This document shows, piece by piece, positions 8,664 through 30,024 of a DNA stretch of 64,000 nucleotides (position 1 is its first letter; the number at the start of each line of letters is the position of its first letter). A program made the translations under genes and the position numbers. This DNA comes from Novosphingobium sp. G106 (lineage in GTDB: Bacteria; Pseudomonadota; Alphaproteobacteria; Sphingomonadales; Sphingomonadaceae): the NCBI RefSeq assembly GCF_019075875.1, contig NZ_JAHOOZ010000001.1, positions 5,708,001-5,772,000 on the forward strand, in the 5' to 3' direction. The notes under the pieces are model-generated. The model saw only the letters and a list, made by a program, of their open reading frames with translations. It had not been told where the DNA came from and did not search any database.

Positions 8664-9227
8664 GTGCGTCTGAAGATCTGGCACAGCGTCGGGGCGGCCG
8701 TCGATGGCGTACCTTCTTCCGGCAGCGCCTGCGACACGGACCTCGCCTTGCTCTACGAGATCGAGGCGCCGCGGCTGCGGCGACGGCTCACGCGCTATTT
8801 CAGCACAGAGAAGGCAGCCGATCTCGTACAGTCCGCTTTCGTGCGCTTGCTTCGGCTTGGCAGCGAGCGCCTGGACGAGCTCGAAAATCCCCGCGGCTAC
8901 CTGGCGCGCACGGCCGACAATCTTGCTCGCGATGAGGTGAAGTTTGCGGCCCGCCGCAACGAGAACAGGCATGTCGATGCCGATGATTGTGGGCTCGCAG
9001 GCCCGGATCCGCTCGCGTTGCTCGAAGCGCGCGATATGCTGCGGCGGATCGAGGTCGGCATTGGCGAACTGCCCGATCGGACGCGCGAGATATTCATGGC
9101 CCATCGCTTCGAGGAGTTGACCTATGCCGAGATCGCCCAGCGCATGGGCGTGAGTATGCGGACGGTCGAGAGGCACATTTCGATCGCTCTGTTTGAGCTT
9201 CATCGCTGCGCGGGTCGCGAGACGTGA
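8664..9227 (+). CDS. FecI-like ECF sigma factor
   Basis: 187 residues. Region 2 (LLYEIEAPRLRRRLTRYFSTEKAADLVQSAFVRLL) and region 4 (LPDRTREIFMAHRFEELTYAEIAQRMGVSMRTVERHI) are clear, with the short linker typical of FecI-type sigma factors. It directs transcription of receptor genes once the cognate FecR relays a signal. The GTG start at 8664 is the best in frame but has a weak Shine-Dalgarno. The stop overlaps the FecR gene start by 4 bases (GTGA), so sigma and anti-sigma are coupled. With the STN-domain receptor and isopeptidase downstream this matches the FecI/FecR/receptor set of astexin-type lasso loci. Confidence 0.9.
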   Translation: MRLKIWHSVGAAVDGVPSSGSACDTDLALLYEIEAPRLRRRLTRYFSTEKAADLVQSAFVRLLRLGSERLDELENPRGYLARTADNLARDEVKFAARRNENRHVDADDCGLAGPDPLALLEARDMLRRIEVGIGELPDRTREIFMAHRFEELTYAEIAQRMGVSMRTVERHISIALFELHRCAGRET

Positions 9228-10228
9228 CGCCCGGCGACAGCAGTGGTGAGGGCAACGAGCGTTTTCTGGCCGCGAGCCGATGGTTCGCGCGCATGCGCGG
9301 TCCCGACGCTGAGCAAAGCCTCCCGGAGTTCGAGGACTGGTGCCGCAATCCCGCGAACCGGCAGACCTATGGCGAAATGGAGGCGATCTGGATGGCATCG
9401 GCATCGGCCCGTCCCGGGGCTGCGTCAGCCGGAAGGAATCGCATCCGGCCCGGACTCATCGCCGCCGGGATCGCCACTGCAGTGACGCTCGGGCTACTCG
9501 TTTACGGCCACCTCCGGCCAGGGATACCGGCTCCTACGCAGGTCTACGGCAGCGAGCGGGGCGTCATTCGCGAGGTCGCGCTCGCCGACGGCAGTCATGT
9601 GGTCCTCGACACCGCGAGCCAGGTCAGCGCCTCGTTCGATCACCTTGAGAGAAAGGTGGCCCTTCTTGCCGGTCGCGCGCGGTTCAAGGTAATGCACGAT
9701 ACCGCGCATCCGTTCGTGGTGACGGCAGCCGGACTTGCCGTCGTGGCGCGCGGTACCATCTTCGATGTCCGCATTGACGCTGGCCGCACCGAGGTCAGCC
9801 TTGTCGAAGGCGCCGTAGATCTCGAGAGCCGCGGTCAAGATGGGGCCTACCGGGTCGTTGGTCGGCTTCGTCCCGGCGAGACGGCCACCTTCGCCAGCGC
9901 CGACCTTCGCCCGCGAATTGCGCGGTTGCCGCAACAAAGCTGGACTGCCGGCATCATTGCGGCCGACGGAATGCGTTTGTCCGATCTCTTGAGCGAAGCG
10001 AACCGCTATAGCGCAGCCCCGATCCGCCTTGCCGACCCGAGTCTCGGCGACCTGACAATTTCGGGCGGCTTCCGCCCGGCCGATAGCGAGCAGCTGGCGC
10101 AGGCCCTCGCTTCCGCCCTGTCCCTGCGGGTCATGCACGGCGGCGACGGCGCCGTGACGCTTACCCGGACGCCGGAAACGCCGGTTGCCAGGGCCGAATG
10201 CCGGACTGCCAATTGTTTCGCGCGCTGA
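9224..10228 (+). CDS. FecR-like anti-sigma/signal-transducing membrane protein
   Basis: 334 residues. The cytoplasmic N-terminus (DWCRNPANRQTYGEMEAIW, DUF4880 type) binds the sigma factor, one membrane helix follows at about 77-97, then a periplasmic FecR domain (VYGSERGVIREVALADGSHVVLDTAS, ARFKVMHDTAHPFVVTA, ARGTIFDV) and a C-terminal region expected to contact the STN domain of the receptor. It senses substrate occupancy of the receptor and releases or activates the sigma factor. GTG start overlapping the sigma stop. Confidence 0.9.
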   Translation: MTPGDSSGEGNERFLAASRWFARMRGPDAEQSLPEFEDWCRNPANRQTYGEMEAIWMASASARPGAASAGRNRIRPGLIAAGIATAVTLGLLVYGHLRPGIPAPTQVYGSERGVIREVALADGSHVVLDTASQVSASFDHLERKVALLAGRARFKVMHDTAHPFVVTAAGLAVVARGTIFDVRIDAGRTEVSLVEGAVDLESRGQDGAYRVVGRLRPGETATFASADLRPRIARLPQQSWTAGIIAADGMRLSDLLSEANRYSAAPIRLADPSLGDLTISGGFRPADSEQLAQALASALSLRVMHGGDGAVTLTRTPETPVARAECRTANCFAR

Positions 10229-11912: not shown

Positions 11913-12188
11913 TCAGAGGGTCTGGCGCCTGACGAAAGCTTCGACCGCTTCGATCGGCGCTTCGACGATCTCGAGGCCATCGACTTGAGAGGCGGGCGAG
12001 CCCTCGCGCAGCTTTTCGACGAGCCTGTCGAGCTGGTCCGGCACGCCCGCCGCGTAGACCTCCACCCTGCCATCGGAGCGGTTGCGGACCCAGCCGGCGA
12101 CACCGATCTCGCGCGCGCGGCTGACGGTCCACTCGCGAAAGAAGACGCCTTGAACCTGGCCCGTGATGAAGATCCTGTATGCGACCAT
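11913..12188 (-). CDS. acyP: Acylphosphatase
   Basis: 91 residues, the full family length. The phosphate-binding loop GQVQGVFFRE with its catalytic arginine and GWVRNRSDGRVEVYAAG with the catalytic asparagine are both present. It hydrolyses acyl phosphates in the cytosol. Convergent with the Lrp gene and close to the TonB receptor promoter; no functional link to the lasso system is evident. Confidence 0.93.
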   Translation of the reverse strand: MVAYRIFITGQVQGVFFREWTVSRAREIGVAGWVRNRSDGRVEVYAAGVPDQLDRLVEKLREGSPASQVDGLEIVEAPIEAVEAFVRRQTL

Positions 12189-12353
12189 GCCAGCTTCATG
12201 GCGTCACGAATGCGATTTTTCCAGTTCGCTCGGGTGGCGCTTCAACAGTTGCCGCCAGGTCTGTGACCGACGCTCCGAGCGCGGTCGCGCGTCCAGTGCC
12301 GCGCGGGGCGACGGTGGTCGCGACGGCGCCCGCCATTCCCATCCAGCCCTGTC

Positions 12354-12391
12354 TGAAAAAAGTTTGTGGGGGGACGGTTCCCTCCGTCGTC
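12354..12391 (+). promoter_or_regulatory. Probable FecI-type promoter of the TonB receptor
   Basis: An A-rich -35-like element (GAAAAAAGTTTG, 12354-12365) is followed about 18 bases on by CCGTCGTC (12384-12391). This arrangement is typical of FecI-class ECF promoters before sphingomonad TonB receptor genes. It lies about 50 bases upstream of the receptor start at 12440. Assignment is by pattern only. Confidence 0.5.
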
Positions 12392-12439
12392 ACCCGCAGA
12401 CTGCCGCCTCGTCGCCAGGCGCAGAACAGGGAGAACGAC

Positions 12440-15004
12440 ATGATGAACCGTACTTCGCGCTGCCGGCTCAGGACAGCGGCAGGCCTTATCGCAGCCGCGG
12501 CGCTGGCGACCATATCGCCGGCTCGTGCCCAGCCGGCGATGCAGATCTACGATATACCGGCACAGCCGCTGGGCGATGCGCTCGCGGCAGCGGCCCAGCG
12601 CGCGGGAGTGGCGATCCTGGCCCCGACGCCGCTGGTGGCGGGCCGGCGGGCGCCGGCGCTCAAGGGTCAGTTCTCGCCCGAGGAGGCGATAAGGCAACTC
12701 CTCTCCGGCAGCGGTCTGGTTCTCGAGCGGGTCGGCGACAGCTATGTCGTGAAGCGGTCCGGTCGCAGCGAGATCGATCCCGCCGATACCGACACCGACA
12801 TCGTCGTCACGGGCTCGCGCATCCGCGGCGCGCCGGTGGCCTCGACGCTCGTGCGCCTCAGCGCGGAGTCCATCCGCAATACCGGGCAGGCAACGGTAGC
12901 CGATGCGATGCGTTCGCTGCCGCAGAATTTCGGCGGTGGCCAGAATCCGGGCATGGGCTTCAACGTACCGGAGTCGAGCGGTAGTGACATCAGCGGCGGC
13001 TCGGCGATCAATCTCAGGGGCCTCGGCGCCGACGCGACCCTGACCTTGCTCAATGGCCACCGGCTGCCCTATTCGGCCCTGTCGCAGTCGATCGACATCT
13101 CGGCGATCCCGCTCGACACCGTCGATCGCATCGAGGTCGTCGCGGACGGGGCATCGGCGATCTATGGTTCGGATGCCGTGGCGGGCGTCGTCAACATCGT
13201 CCTGAAGCGCGACTTCGATGGTCTGCGGACGCGCGCGCGGATGGGCGCCTCGACCGACGGAGGCAACTTCCAACAGCAGTATTCCGTTGTTGGCGGCAAG
13301 GCCTGGGACTCGGGCGGTGTCCTGATCGCCTACGAATTCGCGCGCTCGACCCAGATCACGGCTGCCGATCGCGACTACGCGGCGACCAAGGTGCCCGGGG
13401 TCACCCTCTATCCCGCGCTCAAGCGCCACAGCGTGGTCGTCGCGGCGCATCAGGAGATCACGCCCGACATCACTTTCTCGATCGACGGCGTTTATGGTCG
13501 CCGCTGGAAGGAGGCGACCTATCCGCTCAATGCCGCCGGCAACCTGGCGGTCAGCAGGGTCGAGAACAATGCGCAGTCGCGCTCGTGGGTGATTGCCCCT
13601 TCGCTCCAGGCCCGCCTGGGATCCTGGCGGCTCGAGCTCGGTGGCGCCTATGGCAAGGACCGTGTCATCATCGGTCCCGACCAGTTCATTGGCACCCGCT
13701 TCATCGACGGCGGCGAAGCCTGCCTTTGCAACACCGGCCGGTCGGTCGAGTTTTCCGGCGACGGTCCGGTCTTCGCACTGCCGGGCGGGGATGCCCGGCT
13801 GGCGCTGGGGCTGGGCTGGCGCGACAATCGCATCAACCGCACGAGCCCGCTCAATCCGGTCCGCGCCTTCATCGGATCGCAGGACAGCAAATTCGCCTAT
13901 GGCGAGGTGAACCTGCCTATCGTTTCGCCGAGCATGGCTCTCGCCGGTATCGATCGGCTGAACCTGAGCGCGGCGCTGCGTTACGAAAACTATCCCGGTC
14001 TCGGCGACGTCGCGACGCCCAAGGTCGGGCTGATCTATTCGCCCGTCTCCGGTTTCACACTTAAGGCATCCTGGGGCAAGTCGTTCCGCGCGCCGACCCT
14101 GGTCCAGCTTTATCAGAACGTCTCGACCTCGATCGACCCGCCGAGCGATTATGGCGGCACCGGCTTTCCCGCAGGATCGCAGGTGCTCTTCTTCAACGGC
14201 GGCAATGCCGCGCTGAAGCCGGAACGCGCGACCAGCTGGTCCGCCACCGCCGTGCTCGAGCCGCCGCCGATCCCCGGCCTGCGTCTCGAAGTGGGCCTAT
14301 TCCATACCCGTTACCAGGATCGCATCGTCGCGCCGATTATCCTGTTTAACACGGCGCTGGTCGATCCGGCTGTCGCCGACCGGGTGACGCGGTCGCCGAC
14401 CTTGCCCCAGATCAATGCCGTTCTTGCGCAAACCGATGATCTGACCAACTATACCGAGCAGCCCTTCGATCCTGCGAGGGTCGTCGCGCTTATCGACGAC
14501 ACCTACGTCAATGCCGCGCGCCAGACGATCAAGGGCGTCGATTTCCTCGTCGACTACCGCACCGGCCTTGGCGGCGGGACTCTGGCCCTGACCGCGAATG
14601 CCAGCCTGCTCGACAGCGAGCAGCTTAGAGGGGCAGGGCAGCCGGTTTCCGTGCTGGCCGGGACCATTTTCAATCCGCCGCATTTCCGGGCGCGCGCGAG
14701 CGCAACCTGGGCCAAAGGCCCGCTCAATCTCGCAGCGACCGTCAACCGCATCGGCGGCGTCGACGACGCCCGCTTTGCGACAGTGACGGCCATACCCGGA
14801 ATGACGACTTTCGATCTCGCGCTTCGCCTGCAGCCATCGAAGGGCATCGCCAAGGGTTTCGACCTGCTGCTGTCGCTCGAGAACATGTTCAACGCCAAGC
14901 CGGCGGCGGTCCGCACGATCGGTTTTACCGAAACGCCCTACGATTCGACGAACTATTCGCCGTTCGGCCGCGTCGTCAGCCTGACCCTGGCAAAGACATG
15001 GTGA
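12440..15004 (+). CDS. TonB-dependent receptor with N-terminal STN signalling domain
   Basis: 854 residues. Signal peptide (AAGLIAAAALATISPARAQ), STN domain (YDIPAQPLGDALAAAAQRAGVAIL to SGSGLVLERVGDSYVVKR), plug starting DIVVTGSRIRG with a TonB-box-like segment, then a 22-strand barrel ending in an aromatic residue (SLTLAKTW). STN domains mark transducers that signal through FecR. Next to a lasso isopeptidase the probable ligand is the locus's own lasso peptide. ATG at 12440 with AGGGAG upstream was chosen; the open frame extends further upstream without a signal peptide. The stop lies inside a run of short repeats that leads into the isopeptidase gene. Confidence 0.93.
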   Translation: MMNRTSRCRLRTAAGLIAAAALATISPARAQPAMQIYDIPAQPLGDALAAAAQRAGVAILAPTPLVAGRRAPALKGQFSPEEAIRQLLSGSGLVLERVGDSYVVKRSGRSEIDPADTDTDIVVTGSRIRGAPVASTLVRLSAESIRNTGQATVADAMRSLPQNFGGGQNPGMGFNVPESSGSDISGGSAINLRGLGADATLTLLNGHRLPYSALSQSIDISAIPLDTVDRIEVVADGASAIYGSDAVAGVVNIVLKRDFDGLRTRARMGASTDGGNFQQQYSVVGGKAWDSGGVLIAYEFARSTQITAADRDYAATKVPGVTLYPALKRHSVVVAAHQEITPDITFSIDGVYGRRWKEATYPLNAAGNLAVSRVENNAQSRSWVIAPSLQARLGSWRLELGGAYGKDRVIIGPDQFIGTRFIDGGEACLCNTGRSVEFSGDGPVFALPGGDARLALGLGWRDNRINRTSPLNPVRAFIGSQDSKFAYGEVNLPIVSPSMALAGIDRLNLSAALRYENYPGLGDVATPKVGLIYSPVSGFTLKASWGKSFRAPTLVQLYQNVSTSIDPPSDYGGTGFPAGSQVLFFNGGNAALKPERATSWSATAVLEPPPIPGLRLEVGLFHTRYQDRIVAPIILFNTALVDPAVADRVTRSPTLPQINAVLAQTDDLTNYTEQPFDPARVVALIDDTYVNAARQTIKGVDFLVDYRTGLGGGTLALTANASLLDSEQLRGAGQPVSVLAGTIFNPPHFRARASATWAKGPLNLAATVNRIGGVDDARFATVTAIPGMTTFDLALRLQPSKGIAKGFDLLLSLENMFNAKPAAVRTIGFTETPYDSTNYSPFGRVVSLTLAKTW

Positions 15005-15082
15005 CGGGCCAAGACAGGGTGACGGGCCAAGAAATGGTGAGGGCCCCAAACATGGTGAGAGGCGAAAGCACAGTGAGCGGCA
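15000..15082 (+). repeat. Degenerate 17-19-bp tandem repeats at the receptor/isopeptidase junction
   Basis: Four to five imperfect copies of a unit like GGTGACGGGCCAAGACAT run from the receptor stop codon to the isopeptidase start. Each contains an RTG/GTGA core, so several possible start codons lie in one frame. The repeat appears to have grown by duplication of the stop/start junction and lengthens the 5' end of the isopeptidase frame. Confidence 0.65.
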
Positions 15083-15084
15083 GC

Positions 15085-17208
15085 ATGGCAAGGCTGCTGC
15101 CGCGCTGGACCGCGCGGCTCACCCTCGTCCTGGGCGCATTTCCGCCTTCACCGGCCTGGGCTCGATGCGAGGATCTGATCCCGTCCCTCGCGGCTCAATC
15201 CCCGGCGTTGGCCTCCGCCGACCCCGCGCGCCGCGTAGCACCGGAAGATATCGTACGGCTGCGCGATATCGGCGAGCGCGATGCCGTGGGGCTGGGCAAG
15301 GGGCCGCTCGCCACGTCCCCCGACGGCCGGCGGCTCGCCTTCACTATCGCCCGCGCCGCGATTGCGACCAACGACTACTGCCGCGCGCTCGTCGTGCTCG
15401 ATCTTGCACCGGGCGCCCGGCCGCAGGTCATCGATCGCGGCGGTGAATATATGAAGATCAGCGCACCGGTGCGCGGCCTCGTCGTCAGTCCTGGGCCGCC
15501 CGAAGCCGTGACGCCTGTCTGGTCGCCCGATGGGCGGGAGGTTGCCTATCGCAAGCGGATCGACGATCGGACGGAGGCCTGGGTGGCCCGTGCCGACGGG
15601 GCGGGGGCCCGCAAGGTCGCGCGGCTCGAAACCGACGTCGAGGACCTGGCCTGGAGCGAGGACGGAACTCGGCTTGTGCTGGCCTGGCGCCCAGGTCTTG
15701 CCGCACAGCGCGCTGCTCGCGCGCGGGAGGCCTTGTCGGGCTATCTTTACGATGACCGATTTCAGCCGGCCTACCAAATGGAGCCGCTGCCGACCGCGGC
15801 CCCTCTCGCGGCGGTGTCCGTCGACCTCGCCTCTGGCCTGACCCGCAAGCTTGATGACACCGAGGCCGCGCGGATCTTTCCGGACTACAGGCCCGGCGTT
15901 CCCGCCCCGCGCCAGGCTCTCTCACCGAGCGGACGGCGCGCGCAACTGGCGCCCGCCGCGGGCGGCAGACCCGGAGCGATGCGTGTTTCCGCCGAAGGAT
16001 CCGATGGCCGCATGACCTTGTGCATGGCCGCAAGCTGCACGGGACGGATCACTACCCTGTTCTGGCAAGGGCAGGCGGTTGTCTTTGTCCGGCTCGAGGG
16101 CTGGGCGCTGGGCACCTATGCTCTCTATCGCTGGAAGCCGGGAAGCTCGGCGCCGCGGCGGATTCTCGCGGGCGAGGACCTGCTCTACGGATGCGTGCCG
16201 GGCGCGCGAGCCGTGATTTGCGGAATCGAGAACGCGACCAGTCCGCGGCGGATCGAGGCCATCGATCCATCGAGCGGTCGCCGGCAGGTCCTGTTCAACC
16301 CGAACCCGGAGTTTCGTGCCTTGCGGCTTGGCGCGGTGCGCCGGATCAAGCTACGAAGCAGTCTCGGCTTCGAGGCCTGGGCCGATCTCGTCCTGCCGCC
16401 CGGATATCGCGGCGGCCGAATACCGCTTGTCGTCGTTCAATACCGGAGCCGCGGCTTCCTGCGCGGCGGGGTCGGGGCCGACTATCCCATCCAGGCCATT
16501 GCGGCGCGCGGAATGGCCGTGCTCAGCTTCGAGCGCCCCGAAGGGCCCGGCGACACAAAGGCCAACGAGGCCGAAATGCTCGCTGCCAACACGCGGGGCT
16601 GGGCCGACCGCCGCTCGGTTCTCGACGCGCTCGAACGGGCCATCGACGAGGCCGTGCGGCTGGGAATCGCAGACCCCGAGCGCATCGGCATGACCGGGCT
16701 CAGCGACGGTGCGACGACCGCGGCTTTCGCGTTGATCAACTCGCGGATCAAGCTTGCGGCAGTGGCCATGAGCTCGTGCTGCATGGAGCGCGAATTCGTG
16801 TCGATCACCGGCGGTCCGCGGTTCGCCGAGGCCATGAAAGCGGAAGGCTACCCGCCGATCGGTCACGACGACCCAGCCTTCTGGGCGCCGATGTCGCTAG
16901 CGCAGAACGCAGAGCGGATCGATACGCCGATCCTCATGCAACTGGCGGATCGCGAATATACCAATGGTCTCGAGACCTGGACCGCTCTCGTTCAGGCCGG
17001 CAAGCCCGTCGAGATGATCGTCTATCCCGACGAGTACCATAACAAGTGGCAACCGGCGCATCTTTACGCGAACTACGTCCGCAGCCTCGACTGGTTCGAC
17101 TTCTGGTTCTTCGGCAGGAAGGATCCCGAACCGGCAAAGGCCGCTCAGTATGCGCGTTGGGACGAGCTCAGGCGCCTCCGCGATCGGGCGAGGGGGAGGG
17201 GATCGTAA
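15085..17208 (+). CDS. Atxe2-like lasso peptide isopeptidase
   Basis: About 707 residues: signal peptide (LTLVLGAFPPSPAWA), N-terminal beta-propeller (repeats such as VWSPDGREVAYRK and AWSEDGTRLVLAW) and C-terminal prolyl-oligopeptidase-type alpha/beta hydrolase (S9 family). The nucleophile elbow is GLSDGA and the acid/His region ends YPDEYHNKWQPAH. Known members open the isopeptide bond of lasso peptides, turning the threaded form linear. It follows the receptor gene directly, as in astexin-type loci. ATG 15085 was chosen for its signal peptide; upstream in-frame starts at 14998 and 15073 fall in the tandem repeats. A generic S9 peptidase is the only alternative, and the neighbours argue against it. 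Confidence 0.88.
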   Translation: MARLLPRWTARLTLVLGAFPPSPAWARCEDLIPSLAAQSPALASADPARRVAPEDIVRLRDIGERDAVGLGKGPLATSPDGRRLAFTIARAAIATNDYCRALVVLDLAPGARPQVIDRGGEYMKISAPVRGLVVSPGPPEAVTPVWSPDGREVAYRKRIDDRTEAWVARADGAGARKVARLETDVEDLAWSEDGTRLVLAWRPGLAAQRAARAREALSGYLYDDRFQPAYQMEPLPTAAPLAAVSVDLASGLTRKLDDTEAARIFPDYRPGVPAPRQALSPSGRRAQLAPAAGGRPGAMRVSAEGSDGRMTLCMAASCTGRITTLFWQGQAVVFVRLEGWALGTYALYRWKPGSSAPRRILAGEDLLYGCVPGARAVICGIENATSPRRIEAIDPSSGRRQVLFNPNPEFRALRLGAVRRIKLRSSLGFEAWADLVLPPGYRGGRIPLVVVQYRSRGFLRGGVGADYPIQAIAARGMAVLSFERPEGPGDTKANEAEMLAANTRGWADRRSVLDALERAIDEAVRLGIADPERIGMTGLSDGATTAAFALINSRIKLAAVAMSSCCMEREFVSITGGPRFAEAMKAEGYPPIGHDDPAFWAPMSLAQNAERIDTPILMQLADREYTNGLETWTALVQAGKPVEMIVYPDEYHNKWQPAHLYANYVRSLDWFDFWFFGRKDPEPAKAAQYARWDELRRLRDRARGRGS

Positions 17209-17275: not shown

Positions 17276-19036
17276 CTAGAGCGAAGCTGCGGCGGAGGTG
17301 CTCCGGCAGGCCCGGGCCCAGGCCTCGACGTCGGCGATCCGCAGCACGCGGCTGTAGTCGTAGTCACGCAAGGCAAGGCCGGGAGCCAGGGCGGCCAGGA
17401 TCGCCTCGCCGTCGAGCAATCCCGCTCGGTCGAGCTCGCCCCCGATGAGAAGGTCGGCAAGCCGCTTGCGATTGGCTTCGAAGACTTCGCCGAGGAATCC
17501 GTCGGGTGATCCTTTGTCGCGGCGCCAGACTATTTCTGGCGGCAGCAGCTCCGCGAAGGCTTGTCGCGCAAGAGCACGGTTGTGGCCGCCGTCGAACCAA
17601 TGCCAGCTCGGCACCGACAGGCAGAATTCGACGAGGGGCTGTGCCATCAGCGGCGACCATTCGGCGACAGGGCCGTCGGCGATCTCGATCAGGTTTTCGA
17701 CGACGATCATGTTGGCAATGTGCGTCGCCGCGCCTGGCAGTGCGCCGCGCGGCGTCTTGAGCCAGGGATGCGTCGGCTTGGCCGCGCGGGCGAGCGCATC
17801 GCGGCTGAGCAACCGGTCGTCAATGGGCCAGCGGTAGGCGCGGCGCCGAAGGAAAGCGCGGCGCCAGGCAAGGCCGAGAACCTGCGGCAGGCTAGCCCCG
17901 GTGAGCCGGGCCATGTCGATCGCGGTCTTGACCATGCCTTTCCCTGGTCCCTGCCGGAGCAGCCGGTCGGCCACGGGTGCCGCCGACTGCATCGAGCAGA
18001 ACAGACTGTCGCCGCCGCTTCCGTCCACTACGTCGCCGGCACCCGTCGAAGCGGCCAGTCGGTGCTTAGCGGTGCGTGCCGGTTGGACGAAGGCGCGGGC
18101 CAGGGGCCGAGCAAGGCCAATGGCGTCGCAGCGTCCTATATCGACTTGGTCGACCTCGGGCTCGATCTCGAACAGCGGAACGCCGAGATGGGCCGCTACC
18201 CTTCGTGCGTAGCTGCGCTCGTCGCCATTGGCGTCCCCGTAGGGCAGGTTCAGGCAGGTAAGGCGAGGGCCGGCGCGTGTCAGGCAAGCCGCGAGAATCG
18301 AGGAATCGAGGCCGCCCGACAGCATCGCACCTATGGTGTCGCGATCGCGGACCTGCGCCGCGACACAGGACAAGGTGAGTTCGCGAAGCCGCGCGGCGAG
18401 GGTAGCCGCCGGCTCGTCGCGGGGTGCGCGGGCAAAGGACCAAGGGCTCCATGCTGGTTCGGTCCGGACTTCCTCCATGGTGACGACCATGCGGTTGCCC
18501 CACAGGAGCTCGTCGATTCCGCTGATGCAGGTTGTGGGCGCGCGAAGTCCGGTCGTGCGCAGGTGGCAGGCTACTTCGTGCCAGTCGGGCTGGTCGACGG
18601 CCACGCCGCAGCGTGCAAGCAGGTCGATGTCGGATGAAAGCAAGAGGAGACCGCGGTGCCGCGTGTGGCAACAGGCCAGGTCCGATAGCGGCGCTCTTAG
18701 AACGATGACTTCATGGTCGTTCGCGGCGAAGGCGATGTAGTCGCCCCAGAATTCGGTGATCAGCGCCTGACCGCGCGCCGCGGTCACGCGGCCGCTTTCG
18801 ATCTCATCGAGCTCGACAATGCGGTCCATCGCTCCGCCCTGGCGAAAGATGGGACCAAGGATCGTCCCCCTGTCGCCCGGCAGCACGATCGGCGCCGGCC
18901 CTTGGGCGTAGACCTGGAGGCCAGCGGCGCAAAAGACCAGCCCAAGGCCCGCCTCCGCCATGATCGGCGCGACCGAGCGCTTGAAGCCGAAAGGATCGCG
19001 GAATGCCGCGACGGCAAGATAACGCGGAAGCCTCAC
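17276..19036 (-). CDS. Lasso peptide cyclase (C protein, asparagine-synthetase-like)
   Basis: 586 residues. The N-terminal half resembles a degenerate glutamine-amidotransferase domain lacking an initiating cysteine. The C-terminal half is an asparagine-synthetase ATP-pyrophosphatase domain with the PP-loop MLSGGLDSS and a conserved GSGGDSLF segment. It adenylates the Asp side chain of the precursor and joins it to the new Gly1 amine, closing the ring around the tail. Start is GTG 19036, overlapping the B gene stop by 4 bases. It is convergent with the isopeptidase gene, 67 bases away. Length and order (A-B-C) fit lasso biosynthesis. Confidence 0.92.
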   Translation of the reverse strand: MRLPRYLAVAAFRDPFGFKRSVAPIMAEAGLGLVFCAAGLQVYAQGPAPIVLPGDRGTILGPIFRQGGAMDRIVELDEIESGRVTAARGQALITEFWGDYIAFAANDHEVIVLRAPLSDLACCHTRHRGLLLLSSDIDLLARCGVAVDQPDWHEVACHLRTTGLRAPTTCISGIDELLWGNRMVVTMEEVRTEPAWSPWSFARAPRDEPAATLAARLRELTLSCVAAQVRDRDTIGAMLSGGLDSSILAACLTRAGPRLTCLNLPYGDANGDERSYARRVAAHLGVPLFEIEPEVDQVDIGRCDAIGLARPLARAFVQPARTAKHRLAASTGAGDVVDGSGGDSLFCSMQSAAPVADRLLRQGPGKGMVKTAIDMARLTGASLPQVLGLAWRRAFLRRRAYRWPIDDRLLSRDALARAAKPTHPWLKTPRGALPGAATHIANMIVVENLIEIADGPVAEWSPLMAQPLVEFCLSVPSWHWFDGGHNRALARQAFAELLPPEIVWRRDKGSPDGFLGEVFEANRKRLADLLIGGELDRAGLLDGEAILAALAPGLALRDYDYSRVLRIADVEAWARACRSTSAAASL

Positions 19037-19683
19037 AGCCGCCGGATCGGGGTATAGGAGCGCACGCGATCGAACCGGTCGTTGACCAGGTGTCCCTGGC
19101 ATTCGACCCAGCAATGCGCCGCGAACGGACGCAGCTGCACGCCGAGAACGACATGGGCCGCGAAACCTTTGCGAGCGAGGTCGGTCGCCAGAACGAGGGA
19201 GTGGGGCAGGCACAGATTGTGCGCTCCTCGCAGCAGGCTGAACCAGTCATAGGCCGTCGCAGTTGCGCCCAGTTCTGCATTGTCCCGGGGCGGGGCTGCG
19301 CTGCCGCGCGCCGCGGCCAGTTCGCCTGCTGGTCCCGCTATACCGTGGCGGCTGAGCTTGGCGCGCATGACCGCAAAGGCCAAGGTCAGTCGCAGCAGTC
19401 GGCCGGCCGATGTCGATCCCCTGGAAAGATCGAGCAGGCTCGCCCTGGGCGTGTCGGACGCGCAGGCGAGAAGGGGCTGGCCGCCGGAATGGCCGTGTCC
19501 GGGTACGACTATGCCGAGCTTCTCGAACACCGCGCATGTTTGCGGGTCGGCAGCGCCAGAGATAACAGCCGCGAAATCGCCGGCGAGCTCATGGCCAAGG
19601 CTGAAATAGCGATCTTGCGCCAGGTCGAGGAAGACGAACTCGCCTTGGATACGGCAAAATGAAATGTCGGGGTGAAGTGGCAT
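19033..19683 (-). CDS. Lasso peptide B protein: RRE domain fused to transglutaminase-like protease
   Basis: 216 residues. Residues 1-75 form a PqqD-like RiPP recognition element (FCRIQGEFVFLDLAQDRYFSLGHELAGDF) that binds the leader peptide. The C-terminal half is the cysteine protease: Cys in HNLCLPHS, His in FAAHCWVE and Asp in HLVNDRFD. It cuts the leader from the precursor to free Gly1 for cyclisation. Fused B1-B2 is the usual proteobacterial form. ATG 19683 has AAGGG upstream. It lies 142 bases after the precursor gene, with a strong hairpin between them. Confidence 0.92.
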   Translation of the reverse strand: MPLHPDISFCRIQGEFVFLDLAQDRYFSLGHELAGDFAAVISGAADPQTCAVFEKLGIVVPGHGHSGGQPLLACASDTPRASLLDLSRGSTSAGRLLRLTLAFAVMRAKLSRHGIAGPAGELAAARGSAAPPRDNAELGATATAYDWFSLLRGAHNLCLPHSLVLATDLARKGFAAHVVLGVQLRPFAAHCWVECQGHLVNDRFDRVRSYTPIRRL

Positions 19684-19790
19684 CGAAGCTGAACCCTTGC
19701 GAGCTTGCCCGGACGTCGTCGCTGCCTTTGCGGCCGGCTATTCGTTTGGTCGCAACTGGCGACACGAGGTCCGATCGACGGCGGCGGAAG

Positions 19791-19814
19791 GCGCGCGGCC
19801 GACCGGCCGCGCGC
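19791..19814 (-). terminator. Perfect 10-bp hairpin between lasso precursor and B gene
   Basis: GCGCGCGGCC pairs with GGCCGCGCGC around a 4-base loop, 12 bases beyond the precursor stop on the minus strand. There is no T-run, so it is more likely a partial terminator or mRNA-stabilising structure that raises precursor message over B and C message. Comparable hairpins after the precursor gene are known from other proteobacterial lasso operons. Confidence 0.7.
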
Positions 19815-19825
19815 CCCGACACCGA

Positions 19826-19954
19826 TCAGTCGTCGGTCATGCCCTGCGGGATGAGATTGAAGCCCTGGTCGGTCTTCTGGCCGAGGACCCCCTTGGTTTC
19901 GGCGCTGGCCGTGCCGAGTTCGATCACTTCGGCGGTGTCATGTTCACGTTCCAT
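19826..19954 (-). CDS. Lasso peptide precursor (A protein), 42 residues
   Basis: A small gene below usual ORF cut-offs. The leader (MEREHDTAEVIEL then GTASAETK) ends like astexin-type leaders (xASAET-R/K), with the invariant Thr two residues before the cut. The predicted core has 21 residues: ring GVLGQKTD (Gly1 joined to Asp8, an eight-residue macrolactam), then loop and tail QGFNLIPQGMTDD. The two aspartates at the C-terminus recall sphingonodin-type peptides. Start ATG 19954 has AAGGAAG seven bases upstream. It lies directly upstream of the B and C genes on the same strand. Core residues, cut site and ring size are inferred from family rules; the gene itself is well supported. Confidence 0.92.
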   Translation of the reverse strand: MEREHDTAEVIELGTASAETKGVLGQKTDQGFNLIPQGMTDD

Positions 19955-20056
19955 GTCGACTTCCTTTCGCATGCCGCGAGATGCGGCATGGAAAGACTGG
20001 ACCCTTGTCCGGACTATAGAAATTTAATAGTTGAAAAATATAGATAATATACTCCG
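19955..20056 (-). promoter_or_regulatory. AT-rich promoter and structured 5' leader of the lasso precursor
   Basis: The 102 bases between the GntR stop and the precursor start. The distal half (about 20013-20052) is strikingly AT-rich, with TATAGT (20018-20013 on the minus strand) as a candidate -10. It is followed at once by the palindrome GTCCGGAC (20014-20007), a possible operator. Nearer the gene, a 7-bp stem with 5-base loop (19971-19989) ends just before the Shine-Dalgarno. This suggests a separate promoter and control at the leader, besides any read-through from luxI-phyH-gntR. Confidence 0.55.
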
Positions 20057-20674
20057 CTACTGCTTTGCGTCCGGCGCCGGAGCGATCATCCGCGCGACTA
20101 TCGCGGATACGCTACGTTGCCGTCGGCGGTGGTAGCGTGCGATCGCCGCGCGCAGATCTGACAGGCAGCCAAGCGACCAGGCCGTCGTGATCGTGGTCAA
20201 CTCCTCGACCATCCCGGACAAGACCTGGACTTCCGCCAGGCGTGCCAGATGCAGGCGGTCGCTGGCCTCACCGATCGCATGGCGATGCTCGCCGTTGCCG
20301 AAAGCGGCGGCCATCGCCGCGAAGATCGATCTTGCGCCGTCTTCCGGGGCGGTCACCGGGGACGGAAGCGCGCCGCTCTTCCGATCGAGGCTCTTGCCGC
20401 GAAGGACAATGACCAGCAGGTCGCCGTTCCACGCATAGAGATCGCGCAGGCCGCTTTCGGTCGGTGTCGGCACCTTGAAGCCCTCGCGCGGCCAGGCCTC
20501 TATCAGGCGCTGGGCGTAGAGCTGGTGCAGTGCGTCGCGAACCGGCGTTGTGCTCGCATGGAGATCGGCGGCCAGTCGCGCCGGATCGAGATGTTCCCCC
20601 GGCCGCCGCTCGCCGGTCATGACCTGCCTCTTGACGAGATCGTAGATCCGGTCGGTTGTCTGACCGGGGCTCAT
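20057..20674 (-). CDS. GntR-family transcriptional regulator
   Basis: 205 residues. N-terminal winged helix (TTDRIYDLVKRQVMTGERRPGEHLDPARLAADLHASTTPVRDALHQLYAQRLIEAWPREGFKV) and an all-helical C-terminus that is short for an FCD domain. It overlaps the dioxygenase stop by 4 bases, so it is translated with luxI and phyH. Lying immediately upstream of the lasso precursor promoter, it is a natural candidate repressor or activator of that promoter, perhaps acting at GTCCGGAC. Its effector is unknown. Confidence 0.88.
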   Translation of the reverse strand: MSPGQTTDRIYDLVKRQVMTGERRPGEHLDPARLAADLHASTTPVRDALHQLYAQRLIEAWPREGFKVPTPTESGLRDLYAWNGDLLVIVLRGKSLDRKSGALPSPVTAPEDGARSIFAAMAAAFGNGEHRHAIGEASDRLHLARLAEVQVLSGMVEELTTITTAWSLGCLSDLRAAIARYHRRRQRSVSAIVARMIAPAPDAKQ

Positions 20675-21627
20675 GGTAACGGCGGACCTTGCCGCGCCCG
20701 CTCGCGCGCGGCGTGCTGTGCCACCATGGCTTGCTGCTCGGGCATCAGCGCGTCGGTTGCCGCGACGGGTGTGCCCGGGTCCCCGCCGAGCAGCCGCGAG
20801 GGGCATTGGCCGTCGACGTTGCCGAGGTTCGGACGGTGCTGCCGATAGCCGGCCAATGCGGCGAGGTTCGGCGAAAAATGGCGCGCCGCCTCGGGCGGAT
20901 AGGCGAGCCAGAGGTTCTCGTAGGGCTTGAGCCACCCCAGTGAATAGCCGGCGACGATGCCCCTTCGCGGAGCGGTACTGCGGTTCGCGCCCGCGGCATG
21001 AAGCGAGGAACCGAGAAACAGGATCGCGTCGCCCGGATCGCATTGCGCAACATGGCCTGCCCTGTCGTAGGGCTCGGCCAGAGCGGCAGCGCCATGCGAC
21101 TGCGGCCAGATGACGGTCGCGCCGTTCTCTTCGCGAAACGGCGTCAGCGGCCACATGACGTTGAGCAGGTATTCGATTTCCCCCTTGGGGCCGTGCCACA
21201 TGTCCTGATCGCGGTGCGGAACCTGGGCGATCTCGCCGGGGTGGATCTCGATGGCCTGCATGACGTTCAGCTGGATCGTGTCGCAATAGGGCCCCAGCAG
21301 CGCGCGGGCGATCGCGAGGATCGCCGGGTGTTCGGCGAGCAGCGGCGCCACCGCGGCGCGCATCAGCAGCCGGCCGAACCGCTTGGTGCGCTCCCCGTAG
21401 AAATCGCCCCGGCTGAACGGCGTGTCGAGGAAACGCTCGGCGACCTCGCGATCGAGATCCAACATGGTTTCGCGCGGGAGAAGACCCGGGACGATGCAGT
21501 ATCCGTTTCGGTTCAGTTGCTCGAGCCAGCTGGCCGCTTCCGGCCCTGCGGCGAAGTCGGCGCTGTCGCCCGCGTTGACGGCTGCGTTGACGGCCGCCTT
21601 GCCCGCCGTGCCGAGGGCCGCGCTCAT
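20671..21627 (-). CDS. Phytanoyl-CoA dioxygenase-family (PhyH) Fe(II)/2-oxoglutarate oxygenase
   Basis: 318 residues. Double-stranded beta-helix oxygenase with the metal-binding HxD in VPHRDQDMWHG, the distal His in GSSLHAAGANRS and the oxoglutarate-binding Arg shortly after (APRRG). It overlaps luxI at one end and gntR at the other by 4 bases each. A luxI-phyH pair recurs in sphingomonads, as far as I recall. It could hydroxylate the acyl chain of the homoserine lactone, a fatty acyl precursor, or less likely the lasso peptide. Confidence 0.9.
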   Translation of the reverse strand: MSAALGTAGKAAVNAAVNAGDSADFAAGPEAASWLEQLNRNGYCIVPGLLPRETMLDLDREVAERFLDTPFSRGDFYGERTKRFGRLLMRAAVAPLLAEHPAILAIARALLGPYCDTIQLNVMQAIEIHPGEIAQVPHRDQDMWHGPKGEIEYLLNVMWPLTPFREENGATVIWPQSHGAAALAEPYDRAGHVAQCDPGDAILFLGSSLHAAGANRSTAPRRGIVAGYSLGWLKPYENLWLAYPPEAARHFSPNLAALAGYRQHRPNLGNVDGQCPSRLLGGDPGTPVAATDALMPEQQAMVAQHAARERARQGPPLP

Positions 21628-22247
21628 GCCCGCAGCTCCGGCGCCATGCCCGAGGGCTGCCAGGCCGGTACCGTCCAGATGCCGCCGGCGGCGAGCAGCT
21701 CGGGCGTCTCGTGGTCGATCTCGATCCGCATGGCCACCAGCGTCCGGCCTTCGACGATCCGCGGCAGACCGAGCAGCGCGCAGCGCCAGCCGAAGTTGGC
21801 GATCTGCCGGAACCAGCCGATCTCGGCCACGCCGGTGTAGGCTGTAATGCCGTGCTCGATCGCGTAGGCGGTCAGAGCTGTCACCAAGCGGTCGCGCGCA
21901 TGCCGGCGCTCGGCCGCGCGCAGCGAGCGATCGAGGCAAAAGCGCGTGATCTCGAGAATGTTAGCTCCGCTCGGCACCTCGCCGTCGACGAGGTCGGGAT
22001 AGAGCTCGCCGAGAATGTGCGGACCGACCGTCTTGAGCAGCCTTGAAGAGGCGAAATGGCCGCCATTGCCATCGGAAATAATGAGATAGGTCGCTTCGCG
22101 GTCGTCGAATTGATCGAGTTCCCAGGTACCTGCCAGAACCGGTATGTCCCATTTCAGCAGGTCGACAAAAACATGTTTGCGAGCTTCGAACATGGCGCGA
22201 AGCACCGCGCCCTCCGCTTCGCTCATGTGATCGAGGGTATGAATCAT
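21624..22247 (-). CDS. luxI: Acyl-homoserine-lactone synthase (LuxI family)
   Basis: 207 residues. Contains the family's conserved N-terminal Arg/Phe region (MFEARKHVFVDLLKWDIP), the acidic WELDQFDD segment and the E-x-(T/S)-R-F motif (NILEITRFCLDRSLR). It makes an N-acyl-homoserine lactone from acyl-ACP or acyl-CoA and S-adenosylmethionine. ATG 22247 has GGGAG ten bases upstream, at the foot of a 20-bp dyad. First gene of the luxI-phyH-gntR unit that runs into the lasso genes. Confidence 0.93.
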   Translation of the reverse strand: MIHTLDHMSEAEGAVLRAMFEARKHVFVDLLKWDIPVLAGTWELDQFDDREATYLIISDGNGGHFASSRLLKTVGPHILGELYPDLVDGEVPSGANILEITRFCLDRSLRAAERRHARDRLVTALTAYAIEHGITAYTGVAEIGWFRQIANFGWRCALLGLPRIVEGRTLVAMRIEIDHETPELLAAGGIWTVPAWQPSGMAPELRA

Positions 22248-22257
22248 AGTGCGCGCT

Positions 22258-22277
22258 CCCGGTCTGGTTGGACCGGG
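22258..22277 (-). promoter_or_regulatory. 20-bp dyad overlapping the luxI ribosome site
   Basis: CCCGGTC and GACCGGG flank six bases, a perfect 7-bp inverted repeat just before luxI. It is the size of a lux box, but its end overlaps the GGGAG Shine-Dalgarno, so it could also fold in mRNA and limit translation. Confidence 0.5.
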
Positions 22278-22308
22278 AAAATTGAACAGAATGGGAGCGC
22301 CTGCGGTA

Positions 22309-22324
22309 TCCCTCGGCCTAGGGA
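22309..22324 (-). promoter_or_regulatory. Candidate lux-box-like dyad upstream of luxI
   Basis: TCCCTCGG/CCTAGGGA forms a 16-bp dyad with seven of eight positions paired, centred about 70 bases upstream of the luxI start. This is where a LuxR-type activator would bind to contact polymerase. It is a pattern match only. Confidence 0.4.
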
Positions 22325-22371
22325 GAAAATGCGGAATTTTGCGGCCGAAGGACGCCTGGTGGCCGAACAGT

Positions 22372-23124
22372 CTATCCGTAGGCCGCGCGTGGCGGCATGT
22401 CATCGAAGCACAGATCGCCCATTTTGAGCGAGCCGACGACCAGTTCGCAGCGCGAACCGACCCCCAGTTTCGCGCGCGCCTCGCGCAGATGCTCCATGAC
22501 GCTTTGCACTCCGATGCCGAGGCGCAGCGCGATTTCCGGATTGCTGAGGCCCTGTCCTGCCAGGGCAATGCACTGCCTCTGACGCTTGCTGAGCCGCGGC
22601 AGCGGGTCTCCCGCAGCCCGCCGCTGGAGCCAGCGCATGCGATCGAAAGCGAAAGCCCCGATCGACTGCGCCAGGAGCAGCGTACCGCGCGGCAGCTTGG
22701 CGCCGGATTCCGCGACGAAGCTGCAGGATCCGCGCGCCTCGCCCGGGACATGCACCGGGACTGTGACGCCGTCGCCAAGTCCGATCTGCTTGCCAAGCCC
22801 CAGCACGTGGCGATCGGCACCATTGATCTGGATGATATCGGGTACATCGTTCCAGAAAAACCCGCTGGCCATGCGGTGGCTGGCGCGGTGGATCGGATCG
22901 CTGAGCCCGAGACTGCGCTGATCGTACCACGCCTCCCAGCCGTCCGGATAGTTGTGGATTCGCAGGGCTCTCGGTGCGGCTACGAAGTCGACGTGGTGAG
23001 ACAAGGCAAAGTAACGTGCACCCAGCCATTCGCTGGCTTCGGCCAAGGCATCGTACAGAGCGTCCGTCGACATGACGCTGGATATTCGGCTCGCCAAGTC
23101 CATGGCGGCAGACAACTTTTCCAT
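22372..23124 (-). CDS. LuxR-family quorum-sensing regulator (first)
   Basis: 250 residues: N-terminal autoinducer-binding domain (residues about 20-165, with YFALSHHVDF, WEAWYDQRSLGLSDPIHRAS and aromatic ligand-pocket residues) and C-terminal LuxR helix-turn-helix (LSKRQRQCIALAGQGLSNPEIALRLGIGVQSVMEHLREARAKLG). It lies 124 bases upstream of luxI in the same direction, the usual partner position. ATG 23124 gives the normal N-terminus. Confidence 0.92.
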   Translation of the reverse strand: MEKLSAAMDLASRISSVMSTDALYDALAEASEWLGARYFALSHHVDFVAAPRALRIHNYPDGWEAWYDQRSLGLSDPIHRASHRMASGFFWNDVPDIIQINGADRHVLGLGKQIGLGDGVTVPVHVPGEARGSCSFVAESGAKLPRGTLLLAQSIGAFAFDRMRWLQRRAAGDPLPRLSKRQRQCIALAGQGLSNPEIALRLGIGVQSVMEHLREARAKLGVGSRCELVVGSLKMGDLCFDDMPPRAAYG

Positions 23125-23511
23125 GACAGTACATTCGGCCGATCCGCGCCCGCTCTCGAGCCGAGCATGTGACCGGCCTCCTTTCACGTCAGGTCCCACC
23201 GGGCGGTCCAGCGCCGCGGACTAGGAAGGTTGGTGGTGCGACCCTGTTTTGCTTTGAGAGTTATAGACCTCCGCGCGAAGAACCAGGAAGCCCCAAGAAT
23301 AAGGCTCGCAAAGTCTGTCGCGCAACTATATTTGGAAAATATCTGGAGGATATCGGATGGCCCTGGACGGGAGTTCGAGACTACCTTCGCGGGCACGCAT
23401 TCGACTTGCTGCGCCCGCCGCTTACCGCTTGTCCCTATGCCTCGGCGCCGCGAGGGCTTTGTTTCACGAAGCGGGGCGCATTGTCGGCGGTCACCACCTG
23501 GCTGCTCGAAT
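23125..23511 (+). other. Divergent intergenic region between two luxR genes
   Basis: About 390 bases with no supported gene. It must carry both luxR promoters. Visible features are an AT-rich patch with ATATTT-GGA-AAATAT (about 23325-23345) and generic GC-rich sequence elsewhere. Confidence 0.4.
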
Positions 23512-24258
23512 ATGAGCCTCCACCGTGTGATTGAGCAATTCGCGAACCGATCGCGCCGTTGTTCGAATACCATCGATCTGTTTGCCCTGATCGAAGCCGC
23601 AGCCCGGGAAATACGTTTCCCGCGAGTCGCCCTGGCTCATGGAATGGCATTTCGCCGACCAGGCCGGCACCTCATCCGCATGGATAACTACGGAGATTGG
23701 GCCGATCTTTTCGTCGAGCGCCAATACTATCTTGCCGATCCGGCCACGCTCGCCGGGCTGCAGACCAGTTCAGCCTTTGCTTGGGGGCAAATTCCGCAAT
23801 TGCTGACGCTGACGCGGCAGCAACGCAGAATTCTTGAGGAAGCCCAGCGGTTCGGTCTGCATTCCGGTTACACGATCCCGATCGGCGTGATCGGGGAGCC
23901 GCATGGTTCCTGCTCGTTCGTCGCCGCCGGTCCCGACCTGCCGTCGAAGTGGCATTGCCGCGCCGCCGCGTTGATCGGCGCCGATGCCTTCGGGGAGGCC
24001 CGGCGGCTGCATGGCCTTCCCGGACGCGCCAAACAGCTGCCCCGGCTCAGCGACAGAAAGCTCCAATGCCTCGAACTCCTGGCGATCGGCAAGACCGATG
24101 TCGAAATCGCCATCATCCTCGGGATAAAGGAGACGACCGTTCGGACCTACATGGCCCAGCTGCGCCAGGACTTCGGCGTCGTGAGCCGGACCCAGCTAGC
24201 GGTCGAAGCCCTGCGCTTCGGTCTGATCGACTACGGTGACGCAATTCCTCAAGGTTGA
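23512..24258 (+). CDS. LuxR-family quorum-sensing regulator (second)
   Basis: 248 residues with an autoinducer-binding-type N-terminal domain (DNYGDWADLFVERQYYLADPATLAG, SSAFAWGQIP) and a LuxR helix-turn-helix (LSDRKLQCLELLAIGKTDVEIAIILGIKETTVRTYMAQLRQDFGV). Clearly paralogous in layout to the divergent luxR and likely part of the same circuit, possibly answering a second signal. The long open frame before ATG 23512 lacks domain support and the Shine-Dalgarno is weak. Confidence 0.9.
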   Translation: MSLHRVIEQFANRSRRCSNTIDLFALIEAAAREIRFPRVALAHGMAFRRPGRHLIRMDNYGDWADLFVERQYYLADPATLAGLQTSSAFAWGQIPQLLTLTRQQRRILEEAQRFGLHSGYTIPIGVIGEPHGSCSFVAAGPDLPSKWHCRAAALIGADAFGEARRLHGLPGRAKQLPRLSDRKLQCLELLAIGKTDVEIAIILGIKETTVRTYMAQLRQDFGVVSRTQLAVEALRFGLIDYGDAIPQG

Positions 24259-24466: not shown

Positions 24467-25228
24467 GTGGATGCAGGGGCACCGCTGGCCGACTGGCGAT
24501 CCGGTCAAGACTATGCGGCGCTCGCCCAGGGCGATCGGCGCACTTTTGCCTGGGAGTGGCTGCGCCGCTCGGCCGCCTATTGCCAGGCTTGCCAGGAAGC
24601 ATGTCAGTCGGGGAGCGCCGCCGCCGGATTCGGGCTCCATCGGTTGGAGCCAGCCACTGGTGATATTTCGGCTGCGCGGCCGGTCTGGCGCGCGCAGGTC
24701 GACCCCCATGTCGCGGTTGCCGCGGCGATTCCGGGCACAGACGATAACGACACTTTCGATTTTGCGCGTCTCGCGGCTTTCGCCAAATGTGTGGGCGGAC
24801 CGGGCGGAGCCGAGCATTGGCTGTGGTCGAGCGGCGCGCGGCAGATCCGCCTCGATGTCGTCGCCGGAACCTTGCACGCTGGACCTGTCCGGCTCGACTA
24901 CCGCCTGAGCGGGTTCGGGTCGGCCCTGCCGGCCATGGCCGCGATCGCGCGGCTCATCGCGCTCGCGCGCACCGGCTCCTTTGCCGCGGGACTGTTTCCA
25001 ACGGAGCGCCGCGCGCATCGCTGGGCACTGGTCCTGCGAACCCATGACGCCCTGGTGGCCGGCGCCTCGCAGCGCGAAATCGCCGAGCATCTTTTCGGGC
25101 TCGGAAAACTCCCGCGCTGGCGCATCGAGGCGCCGTCCTGGCGGCAGCGTGCTCAGCGCCTGGTCGTCGCTGCCCGGCAAGCCGCCGGGATCGAGCCGTA
25201 CCGGTGGCTCGATGGCACATGGCCGTGA
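24467..25228 (+). CDS. DUF6499/DUF2285-type DNA-binding protein of integrative elements
   Basis: 253 residues. Starts with the DUF6499-like segment WRSGQDYAALAQGDRRTFAWEWLRR and ends with a DUF2285 helix-turn-helix region (ERRAHRWALVLRTHDALVAGASQREIAEHLFG). Proteins of this pair of domains sit at the regulatory end of proteobacterial ICEs. GTG start at 24467. It marks the left limit of recognisable mobile-element genes in the window. Confidence 0.82.
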   Translation: MDAGAPLADWRSGQDYAALAQGDRRTFAWEWLRRSAAYCQACQEACQSGSAAAGFGLHRLEPATGDISAARPVWRAQVDPHVAVAAAIPGTDDNDTFDFARLAAFAKCVGGPGGAEHWLWSSGARQIRLDVVAGTLHAGPVRLDYRLSGFGSALPAMAAIARLIALARTGSFAAGLFPTERRAHRWALVLRTHDALVAGASQREIAEHLFGLGKLPRWRIEAPSWRQRAQRLVVAARQAAGIEPYRWLDGTWP

Positions 25229-27751: not shown

Positions 27752-27854
27752 TATTGGGCGGATGACGCGGGCGGCCGTTCGCCGTCCATCAAAAGCCGGT
27801 CCGCCGAAAGGGATCAAACAAAGGGCGGACCGGTACCCTTGAGAGGTACGTGTT

Positions 27855-30020: not shown

Positions 30021-30024
30021 AGAT

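Follow-up and report, generated by a model that had tools for sequence, protein, structure and literature searches.

A GntR regulator as the putative middle step between quorum sensing and lasso peptide genes in Novosphingobium sp. G106 and its relatives

Why should the genes of a quorum-sensing system stand directly before those for a lasso peptide, and could one set control the other? The question is raised by a locus in the window analysed here, a 64,000-nucleotide stretch (positions 5708001-5772000) of a contig of the 7.2-Mb genome of Novosphingobium sp. G106, in which luxI, phyH and gntR are followed by the precursor (A), leader protease (B) and cyclase (C) genes of a lasso peptide. Our reading, to which we give a probability of about 0.68, is that the locus encodes a two-step quorum-sensing circuit for a lasso peptide of the isopeptidase type, with GntR as the middle step. 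LuxI would make an acyl-homoserine lactone (AHL), and LuxR1 with bound AHL would recognize a palindrome in front of luxI and raise expression of the luxI-phyH-gntR operon in response to cell density; GntR would then bind tandem 11-bp repeats just upstream of the precursor promoter, overlapping its -35 region, and switch the A-B-C genes, most likely on, although for activation as the sign of this step we would offer little better than even odds. The peptide would presumably be exported, re-imported by a TonB-dependent receptor and opened by the isopeptidase, and a sigma factor and FecR would report its uptake.

On the minus strand, the genes run in the order luxR1, luxI, phyH, gntR, A, B and C. 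As a first-pass annotation of this DNA had described, luxI (21624..22247) overlaps phyH (20671..21627), and phyH overlaps gntR (20057..20674), by four bases each, both times at ATGA, and the precursor ATG (19954) lies 102 bases past the gntR stop codon on the same strand; B and C also overlap by four bases. The LuxI product (PF00765, Autoind_synth, 85.9 bits) aligns to solved AHL synthases and has, judged by eye, the R/F/W, DxxD and ExxR residues, which we take to have substrate roles. LuxR1 (22372..23134, minus strand, with an alternative GTG start at 23199; Autoind_bind 80.3 bits, GerE), an AHL receptor and regulator, matches the RhlR, SdiA and TraR structures. A second LuxR-type regulator, LuxR2 (23512..24258, plus strand; PF03472, GerE), matches TraR, and its gene is divergent from luxR1. 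Two luxR genes had been said to flank luxI; both exist, but they lie on the same side of it. A divergent luxR is found within 2.5 kb upstream in 26 of the 136 luxI-bearing loci examined.

Pfam and NCBIfam models assign the products of A, B and C to the subterisin/benenodin precursors, the lasso B2 proteins and the Asn_synthase-type cyclases. The 42-aa precursor (19827..19954, minus strand) scores 43.0 bits with NF033522 (benenodin) and 53.4 bits with PF24178 (subterisin), and we infer a core GVLGQKTDQGFNLIPQGMTDD with a G1-D8 ring. The B2-type leader protease (19033..19683, minus strand; NF033537, 63.5 bits) is followed by the cyclase (17276..19036, minus strand, GTG start at 19036; PF00733, 111.3 bits), which falls short of the thresholds set for lasso cyclases in NCBIfam. 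The range first given for the locus, 17276-24258, encloses a real locus but leaves out the plus-strand genes that supply the remainder of the isopeptidase-type set: those for an ECF (FecI-like) sigma factor (8664..9227; PF08281, PF04542), a FecR-type anti-sigma factor (9224..10228; PF04773), a TonB-dependent receptor with an STN signalling domain (12179..15004, start uncertain, perhaps 12440; PF00593, PF07715, PF07660) and a lasso isopeptidase convergent with C (14998..17208; NF033523, 740.7 bits against a cut-off of 400; match to the AtxE2 structure, E 4.7e-135). An opposite-strand Glu/Leu/Phe/Val-dehydrogenase-like gene sits between those for FecR and the TonB receptor. The parts expected of an isopeptidase-type lasso cluster were thus all found: precursor, B2 protease, cyclase, isopeptidase, TonB receptor, sigma/anti-sigma pair and a GntR gene before the precursor.

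A survey of gene order in relatives had been proposed beforehand as a check, and lack of a conserved neighbourhood as part of a refutation; the survey showed the neighbourhood to be conserved. Among 397 Sphingomonadaceae genomes from 96 genera, GntR occurs in at least 84 places (69 genomes, 30 of the 96 genera) and the isopeptidase in at least 82 (64 genomes, 26 of the 96 genera), the latter including pieces of split genes; places can be missed, since the first look scored at most seven GntR and at most three isopeptidase candidates per genome. LuxI was tallied in 121 genomes, and the later counts are based on the 118 for which matches were listed. A listed luxI is found no more than 3 kb from 65 of the 84 GntR places and no more than 20 kb from 51 of the 82 isopeptidase places; for the latter, random placement of luxI in genomes assumed to be 4 Mb long would give 1.18. 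Isopeptidase and listed luxI occur together in 59 genomes, isopeptidase only in 5, luxI only in 59 and neither in 274. When gntR lies within 3 kb of luxI, 53 of 60 genomes hold an isopeptidase, compared with 6 of the 58 other luxI genomes (Fisher p 1.3e-18), and four of the seven misses (G095, G157, G336 and G357) have an isopeptidase-like gene by our own profile (L086, L080, L078 and L084).

Surroundings were fetched for 55 of the 81 GntR places other than our own and later for part of the remainder, and the order luxR-luxI-phyH-gntR-A-B-C, with convergent isopeptidase-TonB-FecR-sigma genes, recurs in relatives. Among 129 loci with a luxI-linked gntR, which come from two overlapping sets so that some are counted twice, gntR stands before A-B(-C) in 77 and before sigma-fecR-tonB-isopeptidase in 14; lasso genes lie elsewhere in the fetched DNA in 19 and none were found there in the last 19. 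Named loci, of which 80 were kept of 174 confirmed and which overlap with the unnamed set, include representatives of Sphingomonas, Sphingobium, Sphingopyxis, Novosphingobium, Sphingosinicella, Stakelama and Hephaestia; luxI is present in 75, phyH in 73 and luxI together with lasso genes in 63 (15 genus names), which is far beyond chance. The complete arrangement is present, for example, in Novosphingobium naphthalenivorans (L097) and Sphingosinicella microcystinivorans (L096). Annotated plasmid examples come from Sphingomonas paeninsulae and, in the second layout, Blastomonas RAC04. In the wider class, the isopeptidase was detected in one of 384 other genomes (G409), at a locus with GntR, B and C; that genome gave no LuxI match, but the LuxI search detected none of its controls either, so that this absence is weak. 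As side observations, loci L061, L114, L162 and L164 carry a few kb of extra DNA between gntR and the lasso A-B genes; on a plasmid of Sphingobium TomMM15 (L222), a GntR relative comes after genes for an AHL synthase and a hypothetical protein, and the vicinity has no annotated lasso gene; on a plasmid of S. yanoikuyae (L218), such a relative stands beside surE and radical SAM genes.

At least three lasso clusters are present in the G106 genome itself, each of them with a luxR-luxI-phyH set close by, and gntR is part of the luxI operon only at the locus studied here. In the clusters at about 354-376 kb and 1775-1799 kb (regions fetched: 354000-384000 and 1775000-1799000; L035-L038, L216), gntR adjoins A at one end, and luxI-phyH is found at the other, next to the sigma and FecR genes; the isopeptidase of the 1775-1799 kb cluster is split over two frames. 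Around a fourth luxI-phyH pair, at 5.61 Mb, the fetched DNA contains neither a precursor nor a B, C or isopeptidase gene.

Across loci, phyH and gntR abut or overlap by up to 8 bases (gap -8 to 0) in 99 of 126, and the luxI-phyH spacing is at most 30 bases in 80 of 122 (all starts picked by script), gaps so short that luxI-phyH-gntR reads as one operon. PhyH is an Fe(II)/2-oxoglutarate oxygenase (PF05721, 90.8 bits), whose HxD motif and distal H/R residues, presumably ligands, align with those of AndA. Since luxI-phyH pairs also exist with no lasso genes in their fetched surroundings (L039, L212), a role with the AHL signal appears likelier for this enzyme, and it probably acts on the signal. 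The same pairs make PhyH less likely to be a tailoring enzyme for the lasso peptide, a role for which the hydroxylase of canucin offers a comparison (PMC9266682; here and below, statements on published work refer to the available portions of the papers cited).

How, then, could the signal reach the lasso genes? A de novo motif search upstream of luxI returned the palindrome TATCCCCAgATcTGGGGATA with a log-likelihood of 532, versus 32-38 in shuffled sets; the family consensus of this lux-box-like site is tATCCCCAgATcTGGGGATa, and its G106 counterpart, TCTCCCTAGGCCGAGGGATA (22307..22326, minus strand), lies 59 bases before the luxI ATG and scores 8.6 with our own stretch held out, against 8.4 for the 1% shuffle level. 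That level was exceeded in 96 of 125 luxI upstream regions (most in training; own stretch held out) and in 7 of 120 luxR regions, and in none of the 62 and 13 SigF and 119 TonB upstream regions. It was likewise exceeded in none of 82 A regions, which rules out, as the simplest model, direct control of A by LuxR through a lux box at the precursor promoter. As the motif precedes luxI but not A, LuxR most likely acts on the former and not on the latter.

The promoter of A carries a conserved element of its own, with the consensus AACAaTCGccatATA....ccgTATAAA.TTCGGATA, then a -10-like C.TA.cCT. In G106, it occupies 19987..20056 (minus strand), with tandem 11-bp repeats at about 20015-20042 and the -10-like CAGTCT at 19994-19999. 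A matrix was trained on 44 loci, our own stretch among them; with that stretch held out, this is the sole strong site on both strands of the 64 kb (score 33.3), the next independent site scoring -2.8, and the leave-one-out scores over the 44 loci have a median of 53 and a minimum of -12.6 (L173). The 11-base periodicity, measured as identity at lag 11, is pronounced in loci where a luxI-linked GntR precedes A (z 16.7) and is also seen in a mixed group of split and second-layout loci (z 5.1), and lag 11 is not among the top lags where GntR is of the other type. The -10-like box has one fixed offset in 30 of the 44 loci. Because the distance from the repeats to the -10 box is fixed and no good -35 is present, the repeats would suit an activator site.

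This element goes with the luxI-linked GntR, partly in trans. It scores above 20 in 80 of 93 A promoters of loci with such a GntR (partly training), most of the 13 low scorers having two gene arrangements that we call layouts 2 and 3. Where A lies away from a luxI-linked GntR that is encoded in the genome, 7 of 16 promoters, none of them used in training, score above 20: 7 of 8 outside layouts 2 and 3, and 0 of 8 inside them (L197, L198, L199, L200, L201, L202, L203 and L205, scores -28.9 to 17.2). By comparison, among 15 loci that have a different GntR or none at all, no score exceeds 20 (L173, one of these, was in training; it and L170 score 10.1 and 10.0). The Fisher p is 0.007 overall (7/16 versus 0/15) and 3e-5 with layouts 2 and 3 excluded (7/8 versus 0/15). 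In the G106, G144 and G171 genomes, the element is found only at the lasso locus that is left for the luxI-operon-type GntR. We also considered the element as an ECF-sigma (FecI-type) promoter and rejected this, as its median score in SigF upstream regions (62 and 13) equals the shuffle level and lasso loci with sigma/FecR genes but another GntR lack it.

The regulator is a FadR/FCD-type protein (PF00392), whose AlphaFold model (pLDDT 92.7) combines a winged helix with an all-helical C-terminal FCD domain, as in its relatives TM0439, McbR and VanR; the best TM score by query is 0.75 (9isw) among the 50 matches listed. Unlike in those three proteins, histidines at two of what we take to be the FCD metal-ligand positions appear replaced in the alignment, and the likely operator consists of tandem direct repeats. 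On the GntR tree (107 rows), the luxI-linked or unlinked label needs 2 changes, versus 14.3 in shuffles. The GntRs of layouts 2 and 3 fall mostly in one subclade, so the operator may have changed together with the regulator. The strongest candidate for binding of the 11-bp repeats is GntR, and the first-pass proposal that it acts as a switch in the middle of the locus looks likely.

The circuit has to be weighed against simpler arrangements. One long transcript, on which LuxR would drive luxI through gntR into A-B-C with GntR as a passenger or fine tuner, would agree with the placement of all these genes on one strand, with a terminator scan (6 sites, 4.6 expected) that placed no minus-strand site in the gntR-A gap, and with the shortness of this gap, whose interquartile range over 90 loci is 102-129 bases. 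Yet the promoter-like element of that gap persists in 7 loci where A lies away from gntR, and 14 loci have the sigma gene, not A, after gntR; some read-through may still contribute to expression, but we regard it as improbable that it is the main route. The earlier picture of one locus is supported in the sense of a conserved neighbourhood but finds no support in that of a single read-through operon, as A has its own conserved promoter region with no lux box.

Equally improbable, in our view, is control in the reverse direction, with GntR sensing the lasso peptide, or the linear form derived from it, and feeding back on luxR, so that the peptide would tune quorum sensing. What speaks for it is a related repeat upstream of luxR1, a weak second copy at 23290..23359 (minus strand; full matrix -2.8, core score 11.0). 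The repeat core exceeds the 1% shuffle level in 17 of 93 luxR upstream regions, and in 1 of 106 SigF, 0 of 128 TonB, 0 of 134 C and 0 of 135 PhyH regions. However, 76 of the 93 luxR regions are without the repeat at that level, and the element at the A promoter is much stronger than the copy upstream of luxR. A de novo search upstream of luxR yielded a stem-loop and did not recover the 11-bp repeats. That luxI-phyH-gntR and the lasso genes are mere fellow travellers, as their carriage on plasmids and the ArdC-, ParB- and RovC-like genes next to our own locus might suggest, is very improbable, since order, overlaps and co-directionality are kept across deep GntR divergence and the cis-element goes with gene content, none of which hitchhiking predicts.

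Several observations nevertheless weigh against a two-step circuit centred on GntR. The lux box in G106 is degenerate and barely over threshold, a site inside the isopeptidase gene (16051-16070) scores higher (10.8), and the remaining three luxI genes of the genome have weak sites (0.6 to 5.5). With 31 of 82 isopeptidase places having no listed luxI within 20 kb, the coupling of luxI and lasso genes is common, not universal. Among the annotated plasmid loci examined, those of pCHQ1 (Sphingobium UT26S) and Caulobacter FWC26 combine GntR with lasso genes and have no luxI in the vicinity. In G171, the luxI-operon-type GntR follows luxR-phyH, and no luxI is present in the stretch (L046); genome G297 has a luxI-linked GntR elsewhere and no element at its locus L176 (score -20.4). 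Layouts 2 and 3 score nearly all under 20; some show 11-bp repeats by eye, but as a group (12 sequences) they have a lag-11 z of 1.9, with lag 12 higher at 3.0. Finally, FadR-type GntRs mostly bind inverted repeats; direct 11-bp repeats are unusual for them, and another factor could therefore bind these.

How much of this is new? A GntR gene before the precursor is part of a gene arrangement that hardly varies among isopeptidase lasso clusters, according to a review (PMC9266682). Our locus resembles the astexin-2/3, benenodin and sphingopyxin clusters in its biosynthetic parts, isopeptidase, TonB receptor, sigma/anti-sigma pair and gntR before the precursor (PMC9266682), and differs from them in that its gntR closes a luxI-phyH operon. 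Likewise, phyH is adjacent to novI in four of five novI/novR pairs of Novosphingobium, and these share with our locus an upstream luxR, then luxI, then phyH (PMC3704786), but here gntR and lasso genes follow. In a term search, the main text of that paper had no mention of lasso, asparagine synthase or transglutaminase (PMC3704786). Lasso loci and luxI-phyH pairs are thus each in print (PMC9266682, PMC3704786), as first stated; since the position of GntR before the precursor has been described, what is new is the link between this gene and luxI-phyH, and we would class such loci as quorum-wired isopeptidase lasso clusters. No description of luxI and lasso genes as one locus was found in the literature searched, most subscription journals lying outside it, which agrees with the initial claim of novelty.

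The nearest precedent is capistruin of Burkholderia thailandensis, of the ABC-transporter type, for which a quorum link has also been proposed: AHLs raise ScmR, and deletion of ScmR raises the capistruin genes (PMC6963729). That link is indirect, repressing and exerted through a global regulator, and the available text describes capABCD without luxI, GntR or isopeptidase (PMC6963729). The sphingocin cluster of Sphingomonas BPH has A, B, C, isopeptidase and TonB receptor genes like ours; in the available part of the paper, the terms quorum, homoserine, autoinducer, phytanoyl and GntR are absent and lux appears only in a luxABE reporter (PMC11006600). For a Symbiodiniaceae-associated bacterium, a lasso cluster and, separately, abundant LuxR proteins are reported, and the portion available does not join them (PMC10915500). 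The link may have been missed so far because the lasso loci of pCHQ1 and FWC26 have no luxI nearby. UT26 is listed as a source strain of sphingonodin (PMC7549694), and our guess is that pCHQ1 holds the sphingonodin genes.

Some further features deserve mention. A G+C-rich hairpin between A and B (19790..19815, minus strand) is part of the minimum-energy fold of the A-B gap, which as a whole has a folding z of -2.09, with 7 of 200 shuffles reaching equal fold energy; the hairpin possibly sets the ratio of precursor to enzymes. The luxR leaders of relatives (for example, L132:7594-7671 and L051:7207-7284) contain a conserved stem-loop, GAAAGGRCG..., with the loop TTGAGA. TTGAGR is present in 46 of 120 luxR leaders; in 25 sequences chosen of 38, 9 of 13 pairs are changed on both sides, and 91.7% of cells are paired versus 40-52% when slid. 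The luxR1 leader of G106 (23132-23190, minus strand) holds a diverged form (z -1.8), and this region has no Rfam match. Adjoining the locus, at 24467-37271, are RovC/DUF2285-like, ArdC-type, ParB-like and DUF3363 genes that resemble parts of a plasmid or integrative element, and similar genes also adjoin loci with quorum-sensing and lasso genes on plasmids. A suhB/mmgR small RNA is encoded at 58395-58471 (plus strand; Rfam 45.1 bits).

What might such wiring mean for these bacteria? The natural role of isopeptidase-type lasso peptides was called enigmatic in a 2022 review (PMC9266682). Going beyond the two-step circuit, one may imagine a lineage-wide circuit of two signals, AHL and lasso peptide, in which a single ancient GntR subfamily forms the link and passes density information on to the lasso promoter; GntR would bind the luxR-upstream repeats and a lasso-derived ligand, and so feed uptake and opening of the peptide back to quorum sensing. 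We consider this extension doubtful. Were it true, the lasso peptide would be a second communication signal or a density-tuned scavenger. Most isopeptidase-type lasso peptides have been reported to lack antimicrobial activity, and a peptide acting as signal or scavenger would fit that lack. The loci described here supply concrete candidate operators, a GntR subfamily and strains with which each step can be tested. If many clusters of the family are under quorum control, lasso peptides would take their place in cell-density behaviour, silent clusters might be switched on by added AHL or by expression of gntR, and the unexplained luxI-phyH pairs of sphingomonads would gain a target.

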